Positions 8,064 to 15,090 of a stretch of DNA of 64,000 bases are shown here, piece by piece. Source of the DNA: Blepharisma japonicum (taxonomy: Eukaryota > Ciliophora > Heterotrichea > Heterotrichida > Blepharismidae); the NCBI GenBank assembly GCA_949751835.1, contig CATKHK010000039.1, positions 186,001 to 250,000 on the forward strand. The letters are read 5' to 3'. The first letter of the stretch is position 1. Each line of letters begins with the position of its first letter. Position numbers and translations under genes: made by a program. The notes beneath the pieces were generated by a model. It was not told where the DNA came from. It did no database searches and worked only from the letters and a program-made list of their open reading frames with translations.

Positions 8064-11000
8064 CTATTTGTAAGGGAATAAAGAATTTCTCTTGAGATCT
8101 GGTTTGATAAACCAATCACCTTCTTGATTTTGATATCCTATTGACGTCGGCTCAACTGTTCTTGATCTTGTTAAGAATTCATCTTTTGTGCTACTTCTAA
8201 CTAACTCTAATGATGGTAAATCTTCTTCAAACAATGGACTTGTAGGCTCAGAAGCTGTACTATTCATATTCTTTAAAGAAAGCAGCAGTGAAATATTTTT
8301 TGAGTCATGCTTCTCCAGCCTTCTCGCCCATATTAATATTTTTCTCGGAATTCCTTGGCATTCTCGAATTATTTCATATACTGTTTGGTTAAATTCTGGC
8401 CTATCTCTTTCGGCTTCTAATCTTTGGCTTGTGAATTTAGGACTCTTCAGAGCTAAAAGCTGATATGATTCTTGGTTATTTAAATGGCGCAATGCAAATC
8501 TTTTGATATTATATGAGTCATCTGTAGTTATTTGAGCGCATGATGTTAAAATTACCGAGATTTTGCATTCTTTTAAAAAGATTCTCAGCAAGCTGTTAAA
8601 TGTAATTTCTGCTTGCGTCATTAGCGCATCACAATTATCAAGAATCAATAAAAGCCTTTGCTGATATAAAAATGTCCTTGGATCAATATCAGAAGAATAA
8701 AACGCTAGCCCTACTTTTTGAAATAGCTCATATACTTCATTTAGCGACGATTTTCCTTGTAGATCTAATAAATAAATCCCATCTGGATATTTGTATCTTA
8801 TATTCAAATAATATCCTAAATATTTCACAAACTCAGACTTCCCTACTCCTTCAGTAGAAGTTATATGGACACATGAAGGAGAGTCATTTAAGGCCTCAAT
8901 AATGTTGTAAAGCTCTACTTGCCGTCCTATAAAGCATTTTGTTTTTTTCTCAATATTGCTTGGAGCTCTAGGAATGCTCATATCAATTAATGAAGAGTTT
9001 TTAGGATATTCTGGGCCGTCTTCAAAGAATATTGGTGAATCATGAATTCCACTTACTTCATTTATGAGAACTGGCTCATTTCTGTGGTATTCTTCCCATC
9101 ATTGCTCAAAATATTTACCCATAAACTCTAAGTAGCCAAATTCTCTTGACTGCTCATCTAGATATAGCTCCATTTCTTCTTTGGCTTCAAGATAAGAAGT
9201 CCTTACTGTCAATCCTGACACAAGATTTTTATAAAAACTGATACAAAAAGTATGAATTGCTGATTCAAATGCCAAATATAAGTGAATAGGTTCTCCATCC
9301 TTTGGATAATCTGGCATACCAAATGCAATGACATGTGGAACTCCTAGTTCTTGGCGACAGAATTCTCCAAGCTGAACACTAAATGGCATTGCTAAGACTA
9401 GAACTTCAACTCCATACTGCTGAAATCCTACAATTTCATTTTTCAAGTCTTCTTTCGTCAAAATTTCTGCAACACCATTTTCTTTTTCAAAAATCAAACA
9501 GTTATTTCTTGGAACCTCGCTTGCGATATGCAAAATTCTGCAGTTTTCTTGTAAGTATTCTTTAAGCTTGGCTTTAGAGCCAATATCAAATCTTACACAA
9601 ACTTCTTTTCCAGTTCCAGCAAGCTCTGCTTTAAGATTCGTTCTAAATTCTGATGGGAATCGGCAAACTGCTCCTACTCTTTGTATACTGTTAGTTTTTT
9701 CAACTAATGGCGACGATTTTAATAAAGCTATCACATTTTTACTCTTTTTTCTGATCATCTCATTTGATTTTTTAATTTTTTCCGTGACTTCAATTTCTTG
9801 CTTTCTGTCCCCATTTCTCTTTGTTAAATTTAAAGCTGAAGTATATATATCTCTCGCTTTAATCCAATTTTTCCCAAAGCAATACCAATCACCCAGACAA
9901 ATGGTAGCACGAGCTTCCCAATAAGTCCTGCCAAGTTCTTCAAACACAACTCTGGCATTTTCTAATTTATCAAGCACATCAGCTTCATTACTTTCATATT
10001 TAAGCTTGTATTCCGCCAAGGCTAACTGAGCTCTAGCACAGCCTAAATTATTTTCTGATTCCCTAAATCTTGTATCAGCTAGCTCTAATTGGCCTTCTAA
10101 GTCAGTCTGTGTTGATCTTCTTGAAAGAATTAATGACCCTTCACTGCTGGTGCTTCTAAATTCTTTTATCATTGCTTGCAAAAAGTTTGATTCAGCTTGG
10201 CCTTCTCTATCATCTGCCTCAATAAAATAATTTTTCGCAGCTTCAATTAAGTCGATAGCTTTATCAAAATTATTTGGATTTGCTGATAATAAAGAAGCAT
10301 AGGTTAAATTGATCATGCTATGGTATTTATCCAAATTAAAAGCTTCACAACATTTTTTAGCTCTATCTAGCAGTTCTAGCGCGTCTGCGTTTTTTCCTAA
10401 AATAATGAAAATTGCGGCTGTGCAGTTCATGATTTCTCCTAATGCTTTAGCAGTTTCTTCAGGAATAGTGTCATTTATACCTAAAGCCCGCTTTAGTTGG
10501 TCAATATTCATATAATACCAGAAATTTGCTTCTATTTTTGCAAACATGTCTCGAGGTTTAATTGGCTCTATTTCAAGTTGCTCAGCTAGCTGGTCGCTGA
10601 GGTCAGGAAATTGGCTGCTCCACATTTTATAATCTATTGCAGCATTCACAAAAAATAAGCTTCCTTTTACTTCTGCACCTATTGGAGAAGTCCCAAGTAA
10701 AAAGCACTTTAAAAGAGCTCTCGCAAACACAGCCAAGTGTTCAATAACCTTTATAGCAAATTCTGGACGGTTAGAATAGTGTGTTTCTAAATAATTCGCC
10801 ACGTTACTCCTTACAAGCACAAATTCAAAATTAGGGTCACTATGCAAAAACCATGTATTTAAGGTGTGGCCTTCAGTGTTTAATAGCTGCAAGATTTTCA
10901 TATAATCTAGTATTGTACCTCTACACAAATAGTCAATATTAATCTTGAAAGCGCCAGATGGCAAATAGCATAAAAGCTTTAAAAAATCTGAGGTTTTGTT

Positions 11001-13115
11001 CAATTTATTATTGACATGTGTAAGTGACATTGAAAGTGTTTTTTCAGAATCCTTTGCAGAATGCTGGCTAAAGTTATCTAGACTTTTTGAAGCTTGCAAA
11101 CTGAGTTCTTCTAAGGAATAGTCTTTAAAAAGAGGTGCTATTTGTTGAATAGCTGCTGGCAGAGTCCCAATTTTGTCAAAAAATTCACTCTCTATAGACT
11201 CTGGATGCTTGATATAGTCAGATTTCAGCTTTCAATTAGGATCTACTAAATTCACCAAAAGTTTGGCAGCTTCTCGAGCTTTTAATGGCTTTACTATGAA
11301 TTTCTCTGAATGTGAAAAATTCAGCTCTTTTTGGGTGGCTATTATGAATTTTGGAGCCGTTGTATTGTTTATTAGCGACGAATACGTTTCTTTTAAAGTT
11401 GAATTTTCTTGTTTTAGAAGTGGATCAATATTATCAATAATAAGCAGCACATCAAGGCTGTCAAGTGCTTTGCAAAGCTCATTAAGGTTATTTATTGATG
11501 GTAAATTCAGCGTGCTTGCAATATAGCGGTACATAAAGATGATATCAGTTCTCATCATGAAATCCAAATACACAACACCTTCTTTAAAAATTCTTCTCTC
11601 ATACACATATTGTGCAGCACGCTTCACAAGCATGGTTTTCCCAATACCGCATTGTCCGATTACTTCTACACATCGATTTACTGAAGCAAGGACTGCTAGC
11701 TGCCTTATTTGCTTTCTTCTTCCTACAGTGATTTTTTCTACGTATGGAGGCTTTAAATGGGCAGGAAGAGGGGATTTTATTTCAATGCTAGTTTTTCCGT
11801 TGTTTTCTAATAGAACTTGTTCCAGGATACTAGAATCATTATAAAGTATGCTAAATTTGATATTTGCATGATTAATTTCAGGAGAGCAGCAGCAAATTAC
11901 AAATTTCTGACTTAAAAGCTCATCGTCTGTAAGCTGCCTCTCTGGTGTATAGTCAGTCATGAAATTTTGAGCCCAAGCACAGTTGATGCTATGAATATTG
12001 CTGCCAAATTTGCATCTGCAGGACTCCGGAACATGCTCTCGGTGAATTTCCATTTTATTTGAGCACTGTATCTTATTCATCCACAAGCAGTTTGGCTTGT
12101 GCCTATGTGCACAACAGCAGCTTGAGATTTTATTTTTGTCTTCAATAGCGTACACTGCTTTTTTGAAAGCATTTTCAATGAAATCTCCTTTAATAAGACT
12201 CCTGCACATTTCAGCTACAAAAGTTTTAGCATGGATATCTCCATCCAGATCATGAACAGTAACCACACAGTTAAACCCTGCATTTTGCAGCATTGCTCCT
12301 ATTTCTTGTGAATAGCAGCCTTTAAAAATTACTATTTGGAAATACGTCGAGGCAGATCCCAATATTTTCTTCAGTCTATCAGCATCTACCTCATCCAAAA
12401 TCCCCATATCTTCAACTCCACCTCTTTTTTCGAACCCCAGTACAAATTCTGACCCATTTTCTCTTTTCACCAAATATCCTTGTGAAGAAATATAAATAAT
12501 TTTAGGCTTATAATCCAAAAGTTCATACAAATTTTCTGTATTTGCGACCTCAAACCTAATATCGCAGCCAGCGTCCCTTGATTCTAAATATTCAATTAAA
12601 TTTCTCCTTTCGCCTTCGAAATCTAAGCTGGAATCTTCTATAGATTTGATGACCCCATTATTTGAAGTAACCAGAGGAGAGCTGTGGAGCATGGCTACGT
12701 CTATTTCTGAATAAGCTGTTAATATAATAGACCCTCTTATAGCATAAGTCCTTGCTGCTGTCGTTTCTACTCTTGTTTCTAATTTCTTCTGAAGCATATG
12801 GACCTGTTTTTCAAGAGCTTCAATTTTTTGCAAAAGCTCGTGAACTGATGGGGAATGGCCTTTGCGGATCAACACTCGGACTTCTAAGTCTGAGGAAACG
12901 AAATCGCCTTTTCTGAGGGTGACGTAGGCGCTGCGGGATTCGTTATAAATACTTAAAACACTTTCATCATTTACTTGAGCTCCGTCATCTTTGAGATATT
13001 TAAGAAGGATTTCGCGAGAAAGACCGCTTTCTAGGTCAGGCGCAGTGATATCTAGTGCATGCTGATTATATGTTTGCTCTACTCCTCCTACTTCATATGC
13101 ATAGAGAATTCTCAT
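8064..13115 (-). CDS. Giant STAND protein: CHAT-like, NB-ARC, TPR, CHAT-like, NB-ARC
   Basis: One frame of 1683 residues with TGA (Trp) at 11232-11234 and 9099-9101, starting at ATG 13115 and ending TAG. Order: a short globular N-terminus and coiled coil (about 90-115); a CHAT-like domain (about 127-322) with the Cys motif KGCYSQEIG (Cys267) but Gln212 where the catalytic His of an 'HG' motif is expected; a Cys/His-rich insert (333-418); a P-loop NTPase (Walker A GQCGIGKT 487-494, Walker B LLIIDNID about 557-564); helical TPR-like repeats (about 890-1105); a second, more degenerate CHAT-like region (about 1147-1317, ILHIASEV, no Cys equivalent seen); and a second NB-ARC-like NTPase (Walker A STEGVGKS 1420-1427, Walker B LLLILDNCD about 1488-1496). 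The CHAT calls rest on motif pattern only. STAND NTPases are molecular switches in cell death and immune signalling; that role is inferred. Confidence 0.8.
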
Positions 13116-13164: not shown

Positions 13165-14004
13165 ATGGAATATGCTCAAAAATGTGCTTCTCAAAGCCAA
13201 CAAATAAGTGAAGAAATTTTAAATTCTGGGATTTCCCACAGCTTAAATTATAGACAAACAGTGTTCAAGAAAACCAATCATATTACCGAAAAAATCCACG
13301 AAGAAATCCAAAAGCTGAACAAGTCAATGGAGGAAAAGAATAACACCAATAAAATAGTTTACAAACAACCTAGAAAGGTTTCTCCTACAAATCCTTCACA
13401 AACCTTATTCCAAGCTTACGCAAAAGTATCAAAACATAAGCCGAGAAGATATAACAACTCCAGCATAGATAACGATTACGACTTTGCAGATCTTCTAGAA
13501 GAGAAATGCAGTTCCCATAATAGCTCAAGCATAGATATTCAAGCTTCAGCTTACCCATTAACACCATTAAACCCTGAACTCGAAGCAAAGCTTCGAGTAA
13601 TCGACTATTTTAGCAAAAATGAAAAGCATCATCATAGGCATCATCGTCAATATTCCTCACCAAGAACTGCAGTAAAAATAAGGAAAAAAACTCCAGTCAA
13701 AATCAATGGAATTCAGTGTCCTAATCTTTCTGTCTTACTTGTGCAAGAAGAAAATAAAGCGAAGTGCAATAACTGCAGACATACGAATTGTAAATGTGCA
13801 ATCCAAGGTTTGGATAAAACAGCGACAGAATGACTGAATAATAAAAAAGATATGAGAAAAAAACTATTAGATGAAATACAAATATTTGTGAAGAAAAACG
13901 ATACAAGGCAAAGAAGCTTGAGAAGCTTGGAGTCGAGAATGATAAGTAGTAATAAGTCTATGAGCCCGAAAAAAGAAAAAAATAGTTATCCTGCTGATAG
14001 ATAA
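13165..14004 (+). CDS. Small basic protein with a Cys/His cluster
   Basis: 279 residues after reading the TGA at 13831-13833 as Trp; the frame then continues to TAA at 14002. It is Lys-, Ser- and His-rich and probably mostly disordered. One compact cluster, Cys201, Cys204, His206, Cys209 and Cys211 (CNNCRHTNCKC), could bind a metal ion. The start codon is only 49 bp from the start of the divergent STAND gene, so the two probably share a promoter region. No family is recognised. Confidence 0.75.
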
Positions 14005-14100: not shown

Positions 14101-15090
14101 CTACAGCAGCACTTCGGTAGAGGATCCTGCAAGACTAAGGGCTTTTCTGTGAGAACTAATGTCACATCCAATAAGGCCTAAATAGCTGAGCTTTAATTTC
14201 GGAAGTATTTTTATGATTTCTTCCACCCCTTCTGATGTAATATCATTGTGATCAAGGCTTAAGTGTTTTAGTTTGGAGAATTCAGATAAAATATCAGTTA
14301 ATTTCATAATATTGCTGTTATCAGCCCCTACCTTATCAATGATTAAGCTTTCCAATGATCTAGGCAGATGAGGAATCATCATGGATACACCTATTGGCAG
14401 CAGATTATTTTCACCTATATTGAATTTTGTAAGATATTTCAAGCAGCCTAATGATGTTGCTAAAAATGCCATCCCTTTAGGGCCAACCCCATTTTTATTT
14501 ATTTCCAAGGTTGCCAGACTGCATATATATGGGAAAATATTTGCAAGTCCTCTTATACCTACATCTCCAATATTATTTTTCCCAATATATAGCTCTTTCA
14601 AATGTCTGAGTCCCACAATTCCGCTGCATATCATCAACATCCCATTGCTACCAAGCCCAACTTCTTCTAACCCAAGTATTTCAAGGTTTCCCATCCTTTC
14701 CAAGGCTGGGCTCAATATATCAGCTCCTTCAGAACCTATATTGTTAAAGCTAAAGTCAAGTTCTTTAAGCATAACAAGATCAGTCAGAGCAGAAGCAATA
14801 CTTTCAAATGCGCCGGATTCCAAATAGCATTTTGATAGAATAAGTGATGTAATATGATGATAATAAGGGATTATTGCTCCTAAATACTTTCCGCCCTCTT
14901 CTCCTAAATCCCTTCCTGATAAGTCAATGTTTGTTACTGTAAGAGTTTGATTGTGAAGAACGCGATCAGCTAGGACGTGGACTTTAGGGTGCATTTGAGG
15001 AATTTGAACAGTGGACTCAGGAGATTTGACGGTTTCAGATCGCTGGAGTTCTAAGTTTGAGACTGTTTGGCAGCATACACAGCTTCCCAT
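14101..15090 (-). CDS. Leucine-rich repeat (RNI-type) protein, probably lipid-anchored
   Basis: 329 residues beginning MGSCVCCQ, a good N-myristoylation site followed by three cysteines that could be palmitoylated, which suggests attachment to a membrane. From about residue 55 the protein is built of repeats of the ribonuclease-inhibitor type, for example LKELDFSFNNIGSEGADIL and LKHLSLDHNDITSEGVEEI, about 28 residues each. Such arrays bind partner proteins. The NLRC3/NLRP LRR-like resemblance is to the repeat only; no NTPase domain is present. Confidence 0.85.
   Translation of the reverse strand: MGSCVCCQTVSNLELQRSETVKSPESTVQIPQMHPKVHVLADRVLHNQTLTVTNIDLSGRDLGEEGGKYLGAIIPYYHHITSLILSKCYLESGAFESIASALTDLVMLKELDFSFNNIGSEGADILSPALERMGNLEILGLEEVGLGSNGMLMICSGIVGLRHLKELYIGKNNIGDVGIRGLANIFPYICSLATLEINKNGVGPKGMAFLATSLGCLKYLTKFNIGENNLLPIGVSMMIPHLPRSLESLIIDKVGADNSNIMKLTDILSEFSKLKHLSLDHNDITSEGVEEIIKILPKLKLSYLGLIGCDISSHRKALSLAGSSTEVLL

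Follow-up and report, generated by a model that had tools for sequence, protein, structure and literature searches.

A doubled CHAT-NB-ARC gene in Blepharisma japonicum, likely protease-dead member of a predicted four-gene NLR-like family

When a stretch of 64,000 nucleotides from Blepharisma japonicum (contig CATKHK010000039.1, positions 186,001 to 250,000; hereafter the window, whose numbering is used below) was analyzed, one long gene on the minus strand was found to encode two CHAT and two NB-ARC domains. The CHAT-NB-ARC unit is present twice in this single gene, and the doubling is older than the split into the four genes that now carry it. Judged from sequence, the window gene is one of four that make up a family of NLR-like (STAND) proteins with a predicted N-terminal CHAT cysteine protease. 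The family is best classed as a CHAT-protease NLR with a built-in, apparently dead second CHAT, and the window gene as its putative protease-dead, 30%-identical member. From the N-terminus the order is a small beta/alpha domain, a coiled coil, CHAT1, a Cys/His-rich module, NB-ARC1, a winged-helix-like segment, TPRs, CHAT2 and NB-ARC2. The features are as follows.

8064..13115 (-): whole gene, 1683 amino acids (aa), ATG at 13115 to TAG at 8064, TGA read as Trp; three full-length paralogues
12858..13115 (-): N-terminal beta/alpha domain, residues 1-86 (AlphaFold2 (AF2) secondary structure; predicted local distance difference test score (pLDDT) by block 43-77)
12750..12857 (-): predicted long helix, probably a coiled coil, residues 87-122 (AF2 helix 89-120, low confidence)
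12126..12710 (-): CHAT1, residues 136-330 (profile to paralogues and 8tl0; fold model)
12480-12482 (-): His position of CHAT1, Gln212 (alignment with paralogues)
12315-12317 (-): Cys267 of CHAT1, kept (alignment with paralogues)
11856..12125 (-): Cys/His-rich module, residues 331-420 (CCCAHxHKxxCxW ... HxxHxP ... CxC ... HxxxCxW ... VICCCSxExxH)
11130..11738 (-): NB-ARC1, residues 460-662 (GR465-466, Walker A GQCGIGKT, Walker B LLIIDN)
11232-11234 and 9099-9101 (-): the two in-frame TGA codons of the window frame (Trp), W628 and W1339
10836..11048 (-): winged-helix-like segment after NB-ARC1, residues 690-760 (LSMSLTHVNN...FLKLLCYLPSGAF), conserved in 4/4, named by eye
9744..10460 (-): superhelical TPR-type region, residues 886-1124, with some five and a half pairs of helices (model, Foldseek)
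9162..9740 (-): CHAT2, residues 1126-1318, degenerate (hhalign to CHAT1; Foldseek 8tl0)
8316..8942 (-): NB-ARC2, residues 1392-1600, Walker B LLLILDN (profile, hhalign, model)
8067..8285 (-): weakly conserved tail, residues 1611-1683 (model to residue 1640, low confidence)

Four genes with a doubled CHAT-NB-ARC unit

The genome of the same organism was searched as 45.2 Mb in 224 contigs. UGA encodes tryptophan in B. stoltei, whose genome is given as 41 Mbp with 66% AT (PMC9942806; papers are cited by PMC number and from excerpts unless the main text is named). Code and composition of the window are in keeping with a Blepharisma, a heterotrich ciliate. The window protein matched three further loci (L008, L009 and L010) near full length, in two pieces each, with E-values of 6.3e-112 to 5.1e-80. 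Each of these paralogues is one frame with TGA as Trp (1705, 1702 and 1706 aa, respectively) and has the same domain order. Identity to the window protein is 30%, and the paralogues share 51-78% among themselves. L008 and L009 were joined with 100/100 support in the tree, where the window protein sits on a long branch (2.5 changes per column) whose placement is flagged as unsure. An earlier note on this DNA, made from the letters alone, had proposed one frame with a doubled CHAT-like plus NB-ARC unit and TPRs in mid-chain. The three paralogues repeat that order in single frames and bear this out; as they are full-length and of the same order, the window frame is neither two genes nor chance. 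The CHAT, NB-ARC and TPR parts of the note's domain list also stood, and to these we add the Cys/His-rich module, the N-terminal domain and the winged-helix-like segment, which it did not mention.

When the copies were compared with hhalign, using four-sequence alignments, CHAT1 matched CHAT2 over 175 columns (E 2.7e-12) and NB-ARC1 (NB1) matched NB-ARC2 (NB2) over 188 columns (E 2.3e-15), and the cross-pairs CHAT2-NB1, CHAT1-NB2 and CHAT2-TPR gave E-values of 0.32 to 0.72. No column shuffle reached the real score (0/200 for each of the two pairs); the best shuffle scores were 21.9 and 24.3 against 81.1 for CHAT1-CHAT2 and 102.0 for NB1-NB2. In the trees for CHAT and for NB, the four first copies part from the four second copies with 100/100 support, so the internal duplication predates the gene duplications. 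A query with CHAT1-NB1 of L008, for which ten candidates were scored and counts are thus lower bounds, gave at least nine matches at E <= 10 in the genome. Every one lay within the family: CHAT1-NB1 and NB2 were each matched in all four genes (NB2 at 3.1e-8 to 1.9e-4), and CHAT2 in the window gene (0.0028). The nearest match of CHAT1/NB1 outside the orthologous position is therefore the second half of the same genes.

AF2 models were built for residues 1-775 (mean pLDDT 49.3) and 764-1640 (mean pLDDT 61.7) and compared with the PDB using Foldseek, matches being assigned to domains from match length and the order of secondary structure. The best match of the first model was the SAVED-CHAT protease 8tl0 (E 4.0e-8), followed by subunits of the origin recognition complex (ORC; 8.4e-6), CED-4/CED-3 (1.9e-5), Avs4 (3.1e-5), ZAR1 (7.1e-5) and NRC4 (1.8e-4). 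The second model matched LGN-type TPRs (1.4e-7), 8tl0 (3.5e-5) and Apaf-1 (1.2e-4 to 3.2e-4). The caspase-like and NB-ARC folds that had been proposed for both halves are thus each matched, the former by 8tl0 and the latter by CED-4, ZAR1 and NRC4 in the first half and by Apaf-1 in the second. None of the 50 matches listed for the second-half model in a viral structure library, some of them nameless, was named CHAT. The TPR region has block pLDDT values mostly of 68-91 (62 and 43 in two blocks), and Pfam TPR_12 scored 22.5 bits, below its cut-off of 30.1. NCBIfam (2/4 proteins) and PADLOC (3/4) gave only weak ATPase, TPR and SAVED_CHAT matches. The anatomy found is of the NLR type, one chain combining an effector with a STAND switch and a repeat sensor. 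By eye, the N-terminal domain has a beta-grasp-like order resembling PB1 or ubiquitin-like domains, an identity that was set aside as no significant Pfam or PDB sequence match was obtained.

Active sites, switches and the Cys/His-rich module

CHAT proteases use a His and a Cys in catalysis. The CHAT1 profile found 8tl0 alone in the PDB (E 1.8e-6), and in this alignment the His and Cys of the paralogue CHAT1 domains coincide with H355 and C402 in the 8tl0 chain. The dyad is present in CHAT1 of all three paralogues (HISCHGYY ... VSACFSQ), and the window copy reads YISSQGYL ... FKGCYSQ. The earlier note had Gln212 for the His and Cys267 kept, and the paralogue alignment confirms both. Close to the dyad, H208 is changed to Tyr, C211 to Ser and S265-A266 to Lys-Gly, and Cys267, S269 and Q270 are invariant in the four proteins. 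CHAT2 is without both dyad residues in 4/4, in line with the note's statement on the window protein. At the His position (residue 1200) the CHAT1-CHAT2 alignment places Glu in the window, Cys in L008 and L009 and Asn in L010, and at the Cys position Pro1244 in all four (LAMPFS in the window). His1196 of CHAT2 is invariant and aligns with His208 of the paralogue CHAT1, four residues before the dyad position. As the three paralogues keep the CHAT1 dyad and CHAT2 lacks it throughout, the loss in CHAT1 is particular to the window gene and the loss in CHAT2 is family-wide. The window copy is likely protease-dead. A scaffold of dead protease folds, as the note had suggested, fits this copy, where both CHATs are affected, but not the family, in which three members keep the CHAT1 dyad.

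In searches with Pfam CHAT (PF12770), the window CHAT1 scored 16.1 bits, under the cut-off of 24, and the three paralogues scored 50.3-53.2 bits (3/3 above). The whole-genome search listed the three paralogues and one further gene (21.6 bits), and the window copy was absent from the list. The further gene, L030:131-4207, is a separase (Peptidase_C50, E 8.8e-88).

The two switches differ. NB1 has a complete Walker A (GQCGIGKT in the window), and its Walker B Asp (D561) is followed by Asn in 4/4. A conserved segment (694-732) follows, which is winged-helix-like by eye and helical, at low confidence, in the model. In NB2, Walker A reads GxxGxGKS in L008 and L010 and STEGVGKS in the window, where Ser1420 replaces the first Gly, a Gly in the three paralogues. 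The Walker B of NB2 has Asp-Asp in the three paralogues and Asp-Asn in the window. No winged helix or repeats were seen after NB2, only the weakly conserved tail. Set beside the normal Walker and winged-helix motifs, NB2 looks like a cut-down switch because of these Walker changes and because nothing winged-helix-like follows it, and it may have a regulatory role. The earlier impression that both P-loops were intact is right for NB1 and wrong for NB2. In the paralogue L009:2224-7332 (+), the Walker A Lys of NB2 is an Arg (GIGRS), so nucleotide binding by NB2 may not be required in every member.

Pfam NB-ARC (PF00931) scored 33.7 bits in the window, in two stretches, above its cut-off of 23.5. 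Over the whole genome it gave 25 matches, of which 7 exceed the cut-off; the three paralogues account for 5 of these and contig C98 for the other 2. On this contig, a 769-aa frame with TGA as Trp (L028:2033-4342 (-)) combines an AAA_22 P-loop domain (E 5.9e-8), which the NB-ARC profile matches too, with a kinesin motor (Pfam Kinesin, E 4.6e-95). Near L028, a second protein (L029:4558-6702) has a weak AAA_22 match.

The module between CHAT1 and NB1 contains two CCC clusters and a CxC. All 16 of its paralogue-invariant Cys and His are kept in the window copy, compared with 16/40 of its other trio-invariant positions (Fisher P 1.5e-5); outside the module, 12/31 trio-invariant Cys and His are kept. 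No significant Pfam or PDB match was found for the module, and its convincing matches in the genome are the four genes only, with one other at E 0.69. It is a possible metal-binding domain.

CHAT1 is the best-conserved domain among the three paralogues (71-89% versus 51-78% overall), and CHAT1 and the module are the best-conserved parts between the window protein and the paralogues (40-43%). When the proportions of non-synonymous (pN) and synonymous (pS) change were computed for 5/6 gene pairs, pN was below pS in every segment. The whole-gene pN/pS ratio was 0.057 for L008/L009 and 0.28 and 0.31 for two window pairs. Decay as a pseudogene was considered and rejected because of the unbroken 1683-codon frame, pN below pS and the module Cys and His kept 16/16, with saturation precluding a formal test.

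Known systems, proposed working and alternatives

NLRs with a CHAT protease have been described in fungi (PMC12881547, PMC10197012). In Podospora, a TPR-bearing CHAT protease activates a gasdermin (PMC12881547), and one of the heterokaryon incompatibility loci of A. fumigatus is a CHAT gene (PMC11138114). Bacterial defence proteins with CHAT plus TIR or with STAND domains are also described (PMC10907252). The Blepharisma family is like the fungal CHAT NLRs in that a single chain carries the CHAT effector, the STAND switch and a repeat sensor (PMC12881547, PMC10197012). Unlike them (some lie beside gasdermins), it has a doubled unit, a second CHAT that appears dead and, separating CHAT1 from NB-ARC1, a Cys/His module; no gasdermin match was obtained. 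The rice receptor Pib also has two NB-ARC domains in one chain, but in the order CC, NB-ARC1, NB-ARC2, LRR and with no protease domain (PMC4917536). The SAVED-CHAT protease of type III CRISPR (8tl0) shares the CHAT fold, and its dyad positions match CHAT1. It has no STAND switch, unlike the Blepharisma family, and its SAVED part binds a cyclic nucleotide signal. The NB-ARC fold is shared with Apaf-1, CED-4 and the plant resistosome, the best-ranked STAND-type model matches; these differ in having no CHAT, a single NB-ARC and CARD, CC or TIR signalling parts. JAK (kinase-pseudokinase) combines a live and a dead version of one enzyme fold in cis, and c-FLIP/caspase-8 does so as paralogues; the likeness of the Blepharisma family to these is an analogy of working only, not membership.

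As a whole, the combination of a doubled CHAT-NB-ARC unit whose second CHAT is apparently dead throughout with a Cys/His module and a doubly dead paralogue, in a ciliate, seems to be new. In a limited search of open-licence literature, where absence is a weak sign, we found no CHAT-NLR in ciliates, no doubled CHAT-NLR, no paper on a CHAT domain in Tetrahymena or on a CHAT pseudoprotease and, in the excerpts naming NB-ARC and a ciliate, no treatment of ciliate NB-ARC proteins. The excerpts of a Euplotes paper give the NOD-like receptor pathway among KEGG enrichment terms and describe no such gene. In the main text of PMC9942806, no words starting with NLR, caspase or apoptosis occur. A bacterial or viral source was considered and set aside, as scans of genome contigs and viral contigs, which need conserved peptides and miss distant kin, gave no confirmed relative. 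A tblastn search of plasmids with CHAT1-NB1 of L008 gave 47 records below 60% identity; among the 20 listed, 19 matched the CHAT part only and 1 the NB part.

Peptidase_C14 (caspase/metacaspase) had no match in the six frames of the genome, a weak negative since the search was blind to introns; it had matches in 1/14 control genomes. To our knowledge, the proteases that execute regulated cell death in ciliates are poorly known. Taken together, these two points make the CHAT-NLRs candidates.

The explanation we favour, about evenly balanced between right and wrong in our judgement, is an ATP-switched CHAT-NLR family in which CHAT2-NB-ARC2 would restrain or frame CHAT1 in cis and the window copy would partner the active paralogues as a regulator or scaffold. 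The mechanism is drawn from the anatomy. In active members, the TPR and winged-helix segments would hold NB-ARC1 closed until ligand binding and ATP open it, and assembly would then bring the CHAT1 protease domains together. The dead CHAT2-NB-ARC2 half may restrain or frame CHAT1 in cis, as the pseudokinase does in JAK. The window copy, with no dyad at either site yet still selected as a whole, would most likely regulate its active paralogues or serve them as a scaffold, in the way of c-FLIP with caspase-8; that it seems dead while three sisters keep the active-site residues suggests a part in regulating or supporting the active ones. A bolder proposal, which we consider doubtful, is a ciliate death or recognition receptor with protease and pseudoprotease in one chain, each with its own switch, a metal- or redox-responsive Cys/His clamp between the protease and its switch, and a dead paralogue tuning three active ones, the protist counterpart of JAK control in cis and c-FLIP control in trans. 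If the CHAT-NLRs do serve in regulated cell death, contracted pathways, in which the receptor bears its own caspase-like protease as in fungi, would extend to ciliates. The family would also be a natural test of how a dead copy controls a live protease, both within one polypeptide and between paralogues.

Several observations weigh against the ATP-switched CHAT-NLR. CHAT2 is unmatched by Pfam CHAT in 4/4, and its best PDB sequence-profile match has E 0.37. Residues round the CHAT1 dyad are kept at 10/19 and elsewhere in the domain at 54/111 (P 0.81), so that no general relaxation of constraint round the active site was seen. The Pfam NB-ARC profile is loose, with matches in 13/14 control genomes, above the cut-off in 4. 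ORC subunits, which are AAA+ proteins and not STAND switches, outrank CED-4 for the first-half model, and both AF2 models were built on 4 sequences and are of modest confidence. Synonymous change is near saturation and the rate ratios are rough, and the Cys/His pattern of the module had been noticed before the module test was made. For gasdermin (PF04598) there were 0 matches in the genome, in a six-frame, splicing-blind search with one profile that distant gasdermins could escape.

The module raises the possibility, which we hold to be unlikely though not slight, of a metal- or redox-sensing STAND scaffold in which the module does the work and the protease fold has a structural role only, without regulation of paralogous proteases. 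Its 16 Cys and His are all kept while the catalytic His is lost and only 12/31 are kept elsewhere, and its convincing matches are confined to the four genes. Yet it is equally kept in the dyad-bearing paralogues and so is not particular to the dead copy, and metal binding is itself a prediction without a significant Pfam or PDB match behind it.

A housekeeping task of the family (cell cycle, cortical regeneration or nuclear development) in place of immunity or death, as separase has, appears improbable. The ordinary separase in this genome indicates that CHAT-clan proteases serve housekeeping tasks in it, and the clan link between separase and CHAT is described (PMC12881547). Also, only four genes were found, and these are dispersed, with no linked effector among the scanned neighbouring frames. 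On the other hand, the tripartite order of effector, switch and repeat is that of NLRs, and between L008 and L010 the TPRs (42%) and the N-terminal domain (47%) diverge faster than CHAT1 (73%).

More improbable still is that the window copy remains a protease, with Cys267 activated by another residue or with a His supplied by a paralogue or partner in a mixed assembly. The invariance of Cys267, S269 and Q270 would suit this, but the catalytic His is a Gln, and the neighbours H208, C211 and S265-A266 are changed as well. We also know of no case of a dyad shared across chains in CHAT or caspase folds, which counts against it.

An artefact (two genes, a chance frame or a misassembly) is scarcely credible: table 11, and likewise the standard code, would interrupt the window frame twice, at the TGA codons W628 and W1339, but TGA also occurs 5, 10 and 10 times inside the three paralogous frames, the domain order is kept in 4/4, and from the window's TAA and TAG frequency a run of 1683 open codons would arise by chance with a probability of about 4e-32, which together rule out two separate genes or a chance frame as far as sequence can tell.

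Neighbouring frames

The scan of neighbouring frames took in nine round the four genes, among them Myb, LRR and CNNM proteins, a DNA polymerase delta subunit, coiled coils and unknowns. No common partner or pore former, and no gasdermin, was found among these nine, a set that left out at least L009:8850-9743 and L010:9083-9889. Neither the scanned neighbours nor the gasdermin search gave a pointer to the proposed role in cell death, immunity or mating type. In the window, an LRR protein (14101-15090 (-), LRR_6 E 1.7e-18) lies two genes upstream of the CHAT gene, with no sign of joint action. Between them is a frame of 279 aa (13165-14004 (+)), which has no Pfam match at E 0.01, is divergent and begins 49 bases away from the CHAT gene's start.

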